Assembly (NCBI RefSeq): GCF_013426975.1
Contig: NZ_JACCPY010000001.1
Coordinates: 62,001 to 126,000 of the forward strand
Origin: Sphaerotilus sulfidivorans
GTDB lineage: Bacteria > Pseudomonadota > Gammaproteobacteria > Burkholderiales > Burkholderiaceae_C
DNA length: 64,000 nucleotides
Direction: 5' to 3'
The notes under the pieces are model-generated. The model saw nothing but the letters and a program-made list of their open reading frames with translations. It made no database searches and had not been told where the DNA came from. Positions 32,545 to 42,067 of this stretch are shown here, one piece after another. The stretch's first letter is position 1. Each line of letters begins with the position of its first letter. The translations under genes and the position numbers were made by a program.

Positions 32545-32749
32545 CCCCCCTGCCCCCCCTGGCTCGCGATGCCGGCGAGCCGGCCGGCTGCAGGTGCGGC
32601 CGGGCAGAGAGCGCGCAGATCTGAAAGAACGTGACCCCGATCACGAAACGCTCAGACTGCCGGCGCACAGGTCGATAAGCGTGATGGATCCCCGGCCCCG
32701 TTCCGGGGGGTTCAGACGACCCGACCCTCTGCCCGAATCATGCCGAACC

Positions 32750-32763: not shown

Positions 32764-34920
32764 ATGAAAACCTCTCTTGCGCTGCTGATCGGCGCCCTGC
32801 TGCTGGGGGGCGCGGCCGCCGGCGGGCGAGCACAGCAGATCACCACGCTGTCCACCGGCTCGAGCCTGGTCCCGCAGGGCATCACGCTGCTGTCGCGCAC
32901 ACCGCAGCTGGTGCTGCGGGTACGCGGCTCGCTGGTGCGCGGGGTCGGCCCGCGCATGACGGTGCGCCTGAACGGCCAGCCGCTCGGCACCGTCGCGGTC
33001 GACCACACCGACTGGCGCGACCATGCCTTCACCGTGCCGGCGCTGCTCGCCAGCGGCACGACGCTGGAGATCGTCTTCGACAACGACGCGGCGGCCGGCG
33101 GCGAGGACCGCAATCTCTTCATCGCCTCGGTCGGTCAGGGCAGCACCCGCTTCCAGCCCGGCCCGCTGCAGTCGGTCTATGACCGTGGCGCCGGTGCGCG
33201 GGCCTTCGACGGCCGGGAGGTGTCGGCTGGCCGCAGCGATCTGCCCTGGGATGGCGCACTGCGCATCACCTGGCCTGAAAGCTTGACCCCGCTGGCCACC
33301 ACCGCGCGCCTGCAGCGCCAGCAGGCCGCACGGCTGCTGCAGCAGGCCAGCTTCGGCGCCCTGCCCGGCGAGATCGAGCAGCTCGCCGTCACCGGACTGC
33401 CGGCCTGGATCGACCGGCAGCTGGCCCTGCCGGCCTCGGCCGACTTCGTCGGCGCGGTCCAGGCCCGCTACGACCTCGGCCCGGAACACCGGCCGCGCGG
33501 CGCGCAATACCACCCGCACCAGATCGGACACCATTTCTGGCGCCATGCCAGTCAGGCGCCGGACCAGCTGCGCGCGCGCACTGCCTTCGCGCTGCACCAG
33601 ATCTTCATGGTCTCGCAGCATGACGACAGCCTGTGGCTGCATGCACGCGCCTACGCCAGCTATCTCGACCTGCTGAACCGCCAGGCCTTCGGCAATTTCC
33701 GCGACCTGATCGAGGAGATCGCGCTGTCGCCGGCGATGGGCCTGTACCTGTCGCACATGCGCAACCAGAAGGAAGACCCCACCCGCGGCCGCCTGCCCGA
33801 CGAGAACTTCGCCCGCGAGCTGATGCAGCTCTTCACCATCGGCCTGCATGAGCTGCGACCGGACGGCAGCGTGGTGACCGACGCCAGCGGACGACCGGTC
33901 GAGACCTACGGCAATGCCGACGTGATGGCGCTGGCACGGGTCTTCACCGGCTACGGCTGGGCCTTCCCGGACAGCGAGCTGACCGAGGCGAAGCTGCGCG
34001 CCGGCTGGCCCGACTACAGCGCTGACGGCGACCGGCGCATCGACCTGCAGCGCATGAAGGCCTATCCGGGACAGCACTCGCCGCTGGAGAAGCGCCTGTT
34101 CACCGGCAAGCCCTGGGAGCGCAGCATCGCGGCCGGCGGCAGCGCCGCCAGCGACCTGAAGATCGCGCTCGACACCCTGTTCAACCATCCGAACGTGGGC
34201 CCCTTCATCGGCCGGCAGCTGATCCAGCGCCTGGTGCGCAGCGACCCCAGCCCGGCCTATGTGGGCCGCATCTCCGCGGTCTTCGCCAACAACGGCCGGG
34301 GCGTGCGCGGCGATCTGGGCGCGGTGGTGCGCGCCATCCTGCTCGACCCGGAGGCACGCAGCCTGCCGACCGCCGGCACCGGCCACAAGCTGCGCGAACC
34401 GGTGCTGCGGGTGACGCAGTGGATGCGCGCCTTCGAGGCACGCTCGCAGACCGGCCAGTTCCGCATCGACACCGAGATGGATGCCACCGGACAGCGGGTG
34501 ATGATGTCGCCCTCGGTCTTCGGCTACTTCCGTCCGGGCCATGTGCCTGCCGGCACGGCGATGGGTGCGCAGAGCCGCACGCTGCCGGAGTTCCAGCTGG
34601 TCAGCGAGACCTCGATCGCGACCTGGGCCAATCTGGCGCTGCGCATGAGTGGCGCCGGCCTGGGCTGGACCGGCTCGAGCGCCGACGTGAGCGCGCGCTA
34701 TGACGCGCTGGCCGAGCTGGCCGGCCGCGGCGATCTCGAGGGCGTCGTCGACCAGCTCGATCTGCGCCTGTTCGCTGGCGGCATGAGCGCCGGCCTGCGC
34801 CAGACCCTGATCGACACCATGGCCGATGTTCGCGGCCATGACGCGACCAGCCATCTGAACCGCGTGCGCGCGGCCGTGCTGTTCGCGCTGGCCTCGCACG
34901 AGTACCTGATCCAGCGCTGA
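32764..34920 (+). CDS. Secreted DUF1800 protein with N-terminal carbohydrate-binding-like domain
   Basis: 718 residues from the ATG at 32764, which gives a clean signal peptide (KTSLALLIGALLLGG to GRA-QQ). An ATG 8 codons earlier is less likely. Residues about 35-120 resemble the calcium-dependent xylan-binding module CBM60: LVLRVRGSLVRGVGPRMTVR, then WRDHAFTVP and IVFDNDAAAGGEDRNLFI. The DUF1800 domain follows (about 180-710), with RLLQQASFGAL, PDENFARELMQLFTIGLHEL, FTGYGWAF and LFNHPNVGPFIGRQLIQRLV. DUF1800 proteins are secreted and paired with DUF1501 proteins, as here. Their function is unknown. Confidence 0.82.
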   Translation: MKTSLALLIGALLLGGAAAGGRAQQITTLSTGSSLVPQGITLLSRTPQLVLRVRGSLVRGVGPRMTVRLNGQPLGTVAVDHTDWRDHAFTVPALLASGTTLEIVFDNDAAAGGEDRNLFIASVGQGSTRFQPGPLQSVYDRGAGARAFDGREVSAGRSDLPWDGALRITWPESLTPLATTARLQRQQAARLLQQASFGALPGEIEQLAVTGLPAWIDRQLALPASADFVGAVQARYDLGPEHRPRGAQYHPHQIGHHFWRHASQAPDQLRARTAFALHQIFMVSQHDDSLWLHARAYASYLDLLNRQAFGNFRDLIEEIALSPAMGLYLSHMRNQKEDPTRGRLPDENFARELMQLFTIGLHELRPDGSVVTDASGRPVETYGNADVMALARVFTGYGWAFPDSELTEAKLRAGWPDYSADGDRRIDLQRMKAYPGQHSPLEKRLFTGKPWERSIAAGGSAASDLKIALDTLFNHPNVGPFIGRQLIQRLVRSDPSPAYVGRISAVFANNGRGVRGDLGAVVRAILLDPEARSLPTAGTGHKLREPVLRVTQWMRAFEARSQTGQFRIDTEMDATGQRVMMSPSVFGYFRPGHVPAGTAMGAQSRTLPEFQLVSETSIATWANLALRMSGAGLGWTGSSADVSARYDALAELAGRGDLEGVVDQLDLRLFAGGMSAGLRQTLIDTMADVRGHDATSHLNRVRAAVLFALASHEYLIQR

Positions 34921-34968
34921 ATCCAGCACGGAACCCCGCACTGAAGCCGATCGGCCGGAGATTTCCGC

Positions 34969-36411
34969 ATGAGTTCTTCATCCCCCTCTTCCCGCCGCGC
35001 CTTCCTGCGCACGCTCGGCCAGCTCGGGCTGCTGGGCGGCCCGGTGGCGGCGGCGCGACCGGCCTTCACGCTCGGCCTGGCCGGCCTGGGCGCAATGGCG
35101 GCGCAGTCGTCGAGCGCCGCACAGCTCGACCGGCCCTATCGCGCGCTGGTCTGCCTGTTCATGAACGGCGGCAACGACGCGCACAACTGGCTGGTGCCGC
35201 TCGACAGCGCCGAGCATGCGGCCTACACCCGCGCACGGGGCGATCTGGCGCTGCCGGCCAGCGCGCTGCTCGAGATCGCCAGCCGCAGCCAGCAGGCGGG
35301 CCGGCGCTTCGGCCTGGCGCGCGAGCTGCAGCCCCTGAGCACCTGGTACGGGCGCGGGCGCTGCGCCTTCGTCGCCAATGTCGGCCCGCTGAGCCAGCCG
35401 ACCACGCTGGCCGATGTGCAGGCCGGCCGCGGACTGCCCGCCAAGCTCTACTCGCACAACGACCAGCAGGCGACCTGGCAATCCCTGCAGCCCGAAGGCA
35501 TCGCACGCATCGGCTGGGGCGGCCGGATGGCCGATCTGCTGGCCTCGGCCAACCAGAACACGGTGCTGACGACGATTTCCGCCGCCGGCCAGGCGATCTT
35601 CCTGAACGGCAGCGGCGTGCAGCCCTACCAGATCGACCCGGAGGGCCTGGTGGACGTGCGTGCGCTGCAGTCCGGCGCCTGGCTGCACGGCAGCGCCGGC
35701 GCGCAGGCGCGGCTCGAGGCCCTGCTGCGCAGCAATGGCAGCACCGACCTGCAGGCCGAGCACGCCCGGGTGACCCGCCGGGCGCTCGACACCGCAGCGC
35801 AGCTGCGCGGTGCGCTGGCCGGCACGCCGGAGCTGCCGCTGGGCGCGGTCACGCTGACCGACGGCAGCCGGCTCGATCTGGCGAAGGATCCGCTGGCGCG
35901 CCAGCTGCGCATGGTCGCGCGGCTGATCGCCGCCGCGCCGGCGCTCGGCCTGCGCCGCCAGGTCTTCATGGTCTCGATCGGCGGCTTCGACACCCATGCG
36001 CAGCAGGCGGCGCGCCATCCGCTGCTGGGCGCGCGGGTCGCGCATGCGGTCGACGCCTTCCTGAACGGCCTGCAGGGCCTGGGCCGGCTCGACGATGTGC
36101 TGCTGTTCAGCGCCAGCGACTTCGGCCGCACCCTCACCAGCAACGGCTCGGGCAGCGACCATGGCTGGGGCGGACACCATTTCGTCGCGGGCGGTGGCAT
36201 CCGGGGCGGCGACATTCTCGGCCGCTTTCCCACGGTCGCGCTGGGCACCAGCACCGATGTCGGCTCCGGCCGGCTGCTGCCGACCACCTCGCTGACCGAG
36301 TACGCCGCCTCGCTCGGGCGCTGGATGGGCCTGAGCCCCAGCGAGCTGCTGACGGTGCTGCCCGGACTGGAGCGCTTCGCCACCGCCGGGCCGGATCTGG
36401 GCGGAGGCTGA
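34969..36411 (+). CDS. DUF1501 protein with Tat-like signal
   Basis: 480 residues. The N-terminus SSRRAFLRTLGQLGLLGG has a twin-Arg pattern and a hydrophobic stretch, suggesting Tat export. The body has the DUF1501 (sulfatase-like fold) motifs: LVCLFMNGGNDAHNWLVPL, LYSHNDQQATWQSLQPEG, SIGGFDTHAQQ and SASDFGRTLTSNGSGSDHGW, the last with metal-binding-type Asp/His residues. It starts 48 bases after the DUF1800 gene. The pair is a conserved, exported two-protein module of unknown function. Confidence 0.85.
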   Translation: MSSSSPSSRRAFLRTLGQLGLLGGPVAAARPAFTLGLAGLGAMAAQSSSAAQLDRPYRALVCLFMNGGNDAHNWLVPLDSAEHAAYTRARGDLALPASALLEIASRSQQAGRRFGLARELQPLSTWYGRGRCAFVANVGPLSQPTTLADVQAGRGLPAKLYSHNDQQATWQSLQPEGIARIGWGGRMADLLASANQNTVLTTISAAGQAIFLNGSGVQPYQIDPEGLVDVRALQSGAWLHGSAGAQARLEALLRSNGSTDLQAEHARVTRRALDTAAQLRGALAGTPELPLGAVTLTDGSRLDLAKDPLARQLRMVARLIAAAPALGLRRQVFMVSIGGFDTHAQQAARHPLLGARVAHAVDAFLNGLQGLGRLDDVLLFSASDFGRTLTSNGSGSDHGWGGHHFVAGGGIRGGDILGRFPTVALGTSTDVGSGRLLPTTSLTEYAASLGRWMGLSPSELLTVLPGLERFATAGPDLGGG

Positions 36412-38839: not shown

Positions 38840-38881
38840 ATCTTCCCGCCCACTTGCTTGCACAGGAGCCGCCAATGCTGA
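38834..38881 (+). CDS. 15-codon leader ORF, likely relic of the tgt start
   Basis: ATGCTG opens a frame encoding MLIFPPTCLHRSRQC, ending in a TGA at 38879-38881 that overlaps the fourth-to-seventh bases of the ATPase gene. The first two codons equal those of tgt (Met-Leu). It may be only the abandoned tgt start, but its stop/start overlap could couple translation of the ATPase to initiation at the old tgt site. No protein function is proposed. Confidence 0.35.
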   Translation: MLIFPPTCLHRSRQC

Positions 38882-40295
38882 CACGCCTGCAGATCAAAGG
38901 CTTCAAGAATCTGCATGACGTGGACTTGCGCTTCGGTCCGTTCACCTGCATCGCCGGGCGTAACGGGGTAGGCAAGTCGAACCTGTTCGACGCGATCACC
39001 TTCCTGAGCGACTTGGCCTCGATGCCCTTGCTGGCGGCGGCCCTGAAGGTGCGGGGAACGGGTGACCGCATCGGCGGCATCGAGAACCTGTTCGCTCGAT
39101 CGGATGCCGAATCGAAGCAGATGACGCTGATCGCGGAGATGATCGTTCCGGGCGAAGTCACGGACGACTATGACCGCCAGGCCACAGCAAGCGCGACCTT
39201 TCTTCAATACACACTGGTCCTGGGCCTAGACACCCAGCGATCTGACGATTTAGGGAGGGATCCGATCTACATAGAAAAGGAAGAACTGATTGCGCGCAGC
39301 TCGAGTGACGCGGCAAAGCAGTTGCCTTTCCAGCCGAGCAAGGAGTGGCTGATGCGCCATGTCATTGGCCCGGGCAAACGCACAACCCCGTTCATCGCCA
39401 CCGAAGGCATCGAAGAGCCCGCCATCAAGATTTACGGCGAAAAGACCAGCGCCCGTCGCCCGTCGACAGTTCCTGCCAAAAAGTCACCTCAGACCGTCTT
39501 GTCAGGCGTCAATGCCTCGTCACACCCGACTGCGCTGGCGGCTCGCCGTGAAATGCAGTCGTGGCGACTGCTGCAGCTTGAACCCAGCGCACTGCGCGCG
39601 CCCGACGAGTATCGTGGTCCGGCACGCCTGAGCGCCACCGGCGGCCATCTGCCCAACACGCTGATGCGCATCGGCAGCCAGAACGAAGTGGCTGAGCAAC
39701 TGGCCGAACTGATTCCGGGCATCGTCTCGGTGGATGTGGACAGCGACGACGTCCGCCAGCAGCGCACGCTGGGCGTCACGATGCGCAACCGGGAGCGCTA
39801 TGCGGCCAGTTCACTGTCTGACGGCACGTTGCGCTTCCTGGCACTGGCCGTGCTGGCTTCGGATCCACAGGCCTCTGGACTGACCTGCCTGGAAGAGCCA
39901 GAAAACGGCATCCACCCTCAACGCATTCCAGAAATGCTTCGGCTGGTGCGCCGGCTGGCCGAGGAGGTCGAGCCAGAGGAGAAGCACTTGGTGCCCCCGT
40001 TGCGCCAGGTGATCATCAACACGCACTCACCTCTGGTGGTCGCCGAATTGCACGATGGCGATCTGCTGATGGCCGAAACCCTTCGAGCTCGCCGAGCAGA
40101 GTGGATCCACTTCAAGCCTCTGGGCAACACCTGGCGCGCCACGGGTCTGGAGCCCACGGAACTGATCAGCAAGGGTGAGCTTCAGGCCTACCTGGGCGGC
40201 CCGACCACACGTGCTCCCGGCACGCAGCGGAGGGTGCTCGATCATTACAACCAGCAGTTGGACATGTTCAATGCACCCGCCGATCGGAGCGCCTG

Positions 40296-40296
<1 letters not shown>
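38875..40296 (+). CDS. AAA family ATPase (SMC/OLD-like, AAA_15/AAA_21 type)
   Basis: 473 residues from the ATG at 38875, preceded by AGGAG. An N-terminal strand KGFKNLHDVDLRFGPF leads to Walker A GRNGVGKS (28-35). The ABC-type signature SSLSDGTLRF lies near 312-320, Walker B LTCLEEPENGIHP at 336-348 and the His switch INTHSP at 381-386. The middle region (about 60-290) is a helical lid/insert. This layout is that of ATPases paired with nucleases in OLD, Gabija, PARIS and AbiL-like defence systems. There is no C-terminal TOPRIM here. That role would fall to the next gene, which overlaps the stop by one base (TGATG). Confidence 0.85.

Positions 40297-42067
<1,771 letters not shown>

Follow-up and report, generated by a model that had tools for sequence, protein, structure and literature searches.

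A DUF1800-DUF1501 gene pair of Sphaerotilus sulfidivorans as a candidate two-part surface-polysaccharide enzyme with relatives on viral contigs

What do the products of adjacent DUF1800 and DUF1501 genes, a pairing that recurs in bacteria, do for the cells that carry them? We considered this question for one such pair in Sphaerotilus sulfidivorans (assembly GCF_013426975.1), contained in a 64,000-nucleotide stretch of contig NZ_JACCPY010000001.1 (positions 62,001 to 126,000; hereafter the window). A preliminary description of the window had placed the pair at 32764-36411, and these coordinates are correct, with open reading frames at 32740/32764-34920 and 34969-36411, both on the forward strand. 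Gene pairs of this kind are known but unexplained, and the window pair is a variant of them. The reading we favor, tentatively and with slightly less than even confidence, is that the pair constitutes a two-part enzyme acting outside the inner membrane on cell-surface or environmental polysaccharide, and that phages use a version of it lacking export signals. This reading builds on results for the pairing, the export motifs, a CBM60 fold, a fold of the alkaline-phosphatase type, a conserved candidate site and a phage neighborhood.

The first gene (32764..34920, +; a further in-frame ATG lies at 32740) encodes a DUF1800 protein of 718 residues that begins with a putative signal peptide of the general secretory (Sec) type (32764..32835, +), judged by eye from a hydrophobic core followed by GRAQQ, and that has no lipobox. 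As the preliminary description had proposed, a CBM60-like carbohydrate-binding domain follows the signal peptide: Pfam family PF16841 (CBM60) matches residues 49-134 with 48.4 bits (cut-off 28.2; E = 1.3e-12). In an AlphaFold2 model of the protein (17 alignment rows; mean predicted local distance difference test score, pLDDT, of 81.5), the domain is a beta-sandwich whose top VIA-align match is vCBM60 (PDB 2xfd_A; Z 13.0, root-mean-square deviation [rmsd] 3.0, covering 104 of 109 residues); 2xhh ranks next (Z 12.0), and lipoxygenases and other proteins come after it with Z no higher than 7.2. The CBM-like fold expected at residues 35-120 is therefore present in the model, with its borders at residues 47-171 (32902..33276, +) instead. 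No PDB chain reached E <= 0.001 in a Foldseek search with the same model, vCBM60 not being among the 50 rows shown, and a PDB sequence search with the CBM60 part alone returned nothing usable. The window domain thus shares with vCBM60 a Pfam match over the cut-off and a fold; whereas CBM60 modules are usually fused to glycoside hydrolases, this one is fused to DUF1800 (PF08811; residues 190-715, 290.2 bits, over the cut-off), a predicted helical domain (33331..34908, +) bearing the subfamily motif RELMQLFTIG.

A scan of genome contigs identified 15 relatives of the window locus. In 14 of these, CBM60 was found by a search with the window stretch and a DUF1501 gene is next; the fifteenth (L022) is DUF1800 alone by Pfam, on a contig cut soon after. 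Relatives of the window protein differ from vCBM60 further in carrying up to 11 tandem copies of the module: 11 each in three proteins (L015, L017 and L019, with Pfam likewise counting 11 in the first two) and seven in L021, which is cut by a contig end. Three positions are kept across the copies, D86 (50/53), N107 (53/53) and R116 (51/51). With a lipobox by our own pattern in 12 of 14 N-termini of relatives (from 12 loci; those of S. natans and L019 are without it), the first protein of the pair in other Burkholderiales is predicted to be mostly a lipoprotein. CBM60 occurs in 13 of 200 genomes of the family (12 over the cut-off) and in 4 of 250 of the order (2 over the cut-off), and at least nine of those 13 family genomes carry it on a DUF1800 frame, a count made by hand from frames with the motif in loci roughly 3 kb long, plus the window. 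Pairs with CBM60 are also found in Rhodoferax, Roseateles and others. Two further DUF1800 proteins (L087:9277-11169, minus strand, and L023:4392-6569) have an N-terminal Cys-containing repeat, seen by eye and without a Pfam match, that is maybe another sugar-binding module.

Arrays of 11 CBM60 copies resemble an adhesin, and this resemblance raises an alternative without catalysis, in which the pair is a surface complex, an adhesin or scaffold binding glycan through CBM60, with DUF1501 as a degenerate binding protein that has the alkaline-phosphatase fold and the phage version as a receptor-binding part of the tail. We regard this alternative as unlikely.

The second gene (34969..36411, +) encodes a DUF1501 protein of 480 residues (PF07394 at 58-456; 129.3 bits, over the cut-off). 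Its N-terminal region (residues 1-51; 34969..35121, +; low model confidence) bears the S/T-R-R-x-F-L motif of twin-arginine translocation (Tat) signals as SRRAFL at residues 8-13, and both R9 and R10 are invariant across 15 aligned partner proteins, in keeping with the Tat-like signal noted earlier. According to its structural model (22 alignment rows; mean pLDDT 76.8), the DUF1501 domain (35140..36336, +) has the fold of the alkaline-phosphatase superfamily. Foldseek matched the model to a choline sulfatase (4.8e-6); because the Foldseek template modeling (TM) scores were low, the fold assignment rests on VIA-align, in which the model matched an NPP phosphodiesterase (7mw8_C; Z 17.5, rmsd 3.4, 245 residues aligned) and 490 of 998 chains scored Z 8 or more. 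Also among the structural matches are the phosphoethanolamine transferases MCR-1 and EptA as well as BcsG (6pcz). DUF1501 has in common with this superfamily (NPP phosphodiesterases, sulfatases, BcsG, EptA) its fold, according to both Foldseek and VIA-align, and a set of conserved Asp and His residues, but identities are 8-15%, sequence links are absent or weak, and the residue after D/E384 is Phe in DUF1501 and His in the two sulfatases shown. Sequence searches of the PDB with each of the two window proteins gave nothing usable and no related match for DUF1501, and a 22-row DUF1501 profile gave weak rows headed by an unrelated anti-sigma factor (0.1), with Ras-related proteins at 0.64-2.1 and sulfatases around the SDFGR segment at E 0.35-1.5.

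Conservation was assessed in 42 near-complete DUF1501 rows, comprising 31 of bacterial type (including L023), in part of which signal peptides were checked, and 11 from viral contigs; 11 partial rows, including L084, were dropped, and L080 and L083, both truncated where their contigs end, fell below the length floor. H163, D341, H343, D/E384 and H398 are present in 42 of 42 rows and D397 in 41. Both D70 and S162 are present in all 31 bacterial-type rows, and among the 11 viral-contig rows nine keep D70 and eight keep S162. In the model S162 directly precedes the helix at 163-172. By its residues, this set fits a two-metal site of the alkaline-phosphatase type with S162 as the candidate nucleophile, and the metal-site-like Asp/His motifs of the preliminary description are backed by conservation and model alike. 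The five residues found in every row are more than binding alone would demand of an adhesin or scaffold, and the constancy of D70 and S162 in the bacterial-type rows likewise argues against one, while their loss in some viral copies would suit it.

The matches to MCR-1 and EptA bring up a second alternative, that the target is another surface ester (a lipid A or phospholipid head group, or a glycoprotein) and that CBM60 merely parks the enzyme. Consistent with this idea, most genomes that bear the pair are without CBM60 (DUF1800 is in 42 of 60 genomes of the relatives, CBM60 in 13 of 200 of the family). However, BcsG, a cellulose synthase subunit and phosphoethanolamine transferase, shows that the fold serves polysaccharides too, and both the CBM60 arrays and a link to chitin-synthase operons, discussed below, point to glycan. 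A surface ester other than the polysaccharide is in our judgment an unlikely target.

Several counts indicate that the two families travel together, as the preliminary description had stated. Among 60 genomes (that of the host and those of relatives), DUF1800 exceeds the cut-off in 42 and DUF1501 in exactly the same 42; one more genome, 68% complete, holds a 22-residue DUF1800 fragment. For 73 of 76 DUF1800 matches a DUF1501 match lies downstream on the same strand within 1.5 kb, the exceptions being that fragment and two matches in genome G021 whose contigs end 613 and 48 bases downstream. Eight of 81 DUF1501 rows are unpaired by the 1.5-kb rule, four of them second pieces of a paired gene and four without a nearby DUF1800 (two of these under the cut-off). 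Control genomes matched both families in 2 of 14 cases, the same two for each. In the gene neighborhoods listed for 10 sources, DUF1800 and DUF1501 are the only genes that most have in common, with no further gene recurring in more than two other loci, and the pair is, judged from sequence, a self-contained two-gene unit. In a phylum-wide sample DUF1800 occurs in 20 of 120 genomes.

The pair is not confined to bacterial genomes: four scans of viral contigs revealed it on 15 IMG/VR contigs (two near-identical, and one with two pairs). In all 24 viral loci scanned on these contigs DUF1501 comes directly after DUF1800, and in L080 and L083 it is truncated by the end of the contig. Both a signal peptide and a twin-arginine motif are present in one viral pair (L023/L067). 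Apart from it, neither a lipobox nor a hydrophobic stretch comparable to that of the window protein is present in any of 14 viral DUF1800 N-termini (15-residue hydrophobicity means of at most 1.2 versus 2.34), and none of 13 viral DUF1501 N-termini has RRxF. On one 322-kb viral contig (L067/L085; IMGVR_UViG_3300037882_003354) an exported-type pair occurs together with a signal-less one, the latter adjoining a tail-fibre-like gene.

Neighbors picked by eye on 12 contigs were compared with PHROGs, and nine of these contigs have virion or packaging genes next to the pair, namely genes for terminase, portal, baseplate wedge, tail fibre, head decoration and minor tail proteins (the match in L069 is weak). 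The other three (L028, which is L071, together with L073 and L077) gave no virion-gene match with one neighbor tested each, and L073 has by eye a response-regulator-like neighbor; some of the viral contigs may therefore not be phage. Within the DUF1800 protein of L081, residues 41-103 match Methylophilales phage tail fibres (2e-3) and residues 57-86 match the cyanophage baseplate connector gp9 (3e-3), both weakly, with phrog_677 at 2.2e-4; the N-terminus of L083, similar by eye, has no PHROG match. This tail-fibre-like start would be in keeping with receptor binding, as the adhesin-type alternative proposes. Ten proteins in all, from viral contigs and the window, had a single short PHROG match, at 0.0011 to a family whose function is unknown. 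Among 50,697 phage records, the window DUF1501 and two viral proteins had no match, the L025 DUF1501 matched one unannotated record, MT837425.1, and the L081 DUF1800 matched the same record, its N-terminal stretch matching nine more. MT837425.1 is a 6.9-kb unannotated 'Bacteriophage sp.' from human faeces with matches to both DUF1501 and DUF1800. The occurrence of DUF1800 in phages is not in itself new, since one BFVD entry, from an uncultured Caudovirales phage, is annotated as 'DUF1800 family protein' (6.4e-21). Phage tailspike depolymerases have a beta-helix fold; the viral pairs resemble these enzymes in lying near tail, baseplate, portal or terminase genes, and differ in being a mostly helical DUF1800 with a partner of predicted alkaline-phosphatase fold and in having next to no PHROG match.

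The viral proteins belong with the window type of DUF1800. The motif REx[ML]QL[FY][TS][ILM]G marks the window type and all 14 viral proteins, and RE[ILV][LM]ELHT[LM]G marks 17 of 24 loci of the phylum sample, of which five are of window type and two neither. A 54-row DUF1800 tree, made by a quick method (a careful search is unfinished) and omitting L131 and four partial rows, separates two subfamilies with support of 100; all 14 viral rows fall in the half that includes the window, 11 of them in one clade (99) with L071, L073 and L084 outside it. L023, on a viral contig and of exported type, is counted as bacterial in this tree.

In the available portions of the open-access literature searched, no function has been shown for DUF1800 or DUF1501, so the earlier statement that none is known holds there, though one link is published: as far as its available text goes, PMC5122149 (BMC Evol Biol 2016) proposes a connection of DUF1800-DUF1501 with bacterial chitin synthases, in whose operons the pair lies. 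Common to those operons and the window are the same two families, a predicted operon, a twin-arginine DUF1501 and a polysaccharide link, whereas the S. sulfidivorans genome is without Chitin_synth_2 and its DUF1800 bears CBM60. The same text contains no structures and no phage tail copies, and some of its chitin-synthase regions are marked prophage or island. A chitin-synthase companion in the S. sulfidivorans genome was rejected, there being no PF03142 match and none in the flanks read. In the accessible parts of other papers, DUF1501 adjoins a glycosyltransferase gene in Dickeya (PMC6329079), both families are tabulated among genes associated with orphan genes of type VI secretion (PMC6653060), DUF1800 is enriched among calcium-raised genes of a coccolithophore (PMC7563939), and both COGs (COG5267/COG4102) are among abundant uncharacterised families of SAR202 (PMC6946804). 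A 61-residue 'DUF1501' of a Pseudomonas phage (PMC5418858, from the part available) was discarded as merely a weak CDD match. The papers listed for DUF1800 and those listed for CBM60 (with calcium and CBM36) did not overlap in the open-access literature searched.

The chitin-synthase operons would also accord with a third alternative, in which the pair helps the producer to make or export a polysaccharide of its own (a sheath, an exopolysaccharide or a chitin-like polymer) and does not attack one. The closest named relative of the window protein, at 95% identity, is that of Sphaerotilus natans ATCC 13338, a sheathed bacterium, which likewise fits. Nevertheless, we found no synthesis gene in the flanks read, the pair with CBM60 extends to Rhodoferax, Roseateles and others, which are not known to form a sheath, and viral contigs have the pair beside virion genes. 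We consider such a role improbable.

The genes around the window pair encode AhpC- and AhpF-like proteins upstream and FabB- and FabA-like proteins downstream. Similarity between the window and S. natans ends exactly at the DUF1501 stop codon (window 36411; L008 9636), after which the window has the FabB-like gene and S. natans has imelysin and di-haem oxidoreductase genes. The host genome holds three DUF1800-DUF1501 pairs, with CBM60 only on that of the window. At 38854-40919 (+), 2.4 kb from the pair, an AAA ATPase gene and a small partner form a candidate anti-phage system, matching HEC-01A (1.2e-98) and HEC-01B (2.6e-28) of PADLOC, and an AAA ATPase gene near a second pair of the host genome (L086:11339-12427, minus strand) matches PDC-M38A (8.4e-128), perhaps by chance. 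Neither protein of the window pair matches PADLOC, and an anti-phage defense role for the pair was rejected.

We return to the favored reading, that of a two-part enzyme on polysaccharide. DUF1501, exported folded through Tat, would be the catalytic part, a metalloenzyme of the alkaline-phosphatase superfamily that acts on a phosphate, sulfate or similar ester of a glycan, either cleaving or transferring it. DUF1800, exported through Sec, would be its helical partner, presumably in a physical complex, and CBM60, in one copy here and up to 11 in relatives, where the protein would mostly be lipid-anchored, would keep the pair on the polymer. In tailed phages the signal-less pair would be part of the virion, in at least some of them part of the tail, and would act on or bind the sugar coat of the host. 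The phage-borne relatives suggest that both kinds of pair act on cell-surface sugar coats. Catalysis, the class and chemistry of the substrate, the complex, presence in virions and use in infection are what we infer from the results above.

A number of observations weigh against this reading. With regard to CBM60, a profile built from 18 copies missed vCBM60 and retrieved no CBM60 chain onto which calcium ligands could be mapped, its best row being a collagen adhesin (0.0041) that we take as chance. DUF1800 matches no solved fold in the Foldseek and VIA-align rows seen; its helical domain is barely tested in the model, because the CBM part fills the VIA-align rows, and we do not call its fold new. 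For DUF1501, the best Foldseek row has a low TM-score of 0.31 with an rmsd of 19.5. The candidate metal ligands are proposed from conservation, because profile alignment to sulfatases and phosphodiesterases failed: hhalign comparison with those of the relatives was of no use, the profiles being shallow and one sulfatase row only 89 residues long. Viral DUF1501 rows have Cys for D70 (2/11) and Ala or Asn for S162 (3/11), and L084 matches just the C-terminal part of the Pfam model, and because of these replacements and this partial match some viral copies may be inactive. As to genomic context, the flanks read contain no polysaccharide gene beside the window pair, the host genome has no Chitin_synth_2 (PF03142) match, and its other two DUF1800-DUF1501 pairs are without CBM60. 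In the part of PMC3597751 available, a metagenome correlation puts DUF1800 with DNA-metabolism families. Action on a polysaccharide, as the preliminary description had hinted, stands as the best reading and as a partly supported one; the CBM60 arrays and the phage-borne pairs go beyond what that description had read.

More specifically, the pair may represent an undescribed class of two-subunit surface-glycan enzyme, exported by bacteria and aimed by up to 11 CBM60 modules, and borne on the tails of uncultured tailed phages, where it would serve as an enzyme for entry or as a device that modifies the receptor, without relation to the tailspike depolymerases known so far, a possibility that we hold to be on balance doubtful. 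The alkaline-phosphatase-type fold, the sugar-binding modules and the phage versions nonetheless turn 'function unknown' into a testable claim, that of a metal-dependent enzyme acting on surface polysaccharide. Should the phage versions prove to be enzymes of the virion, phages would have an unrecognised means of dealing with bacterial coats.

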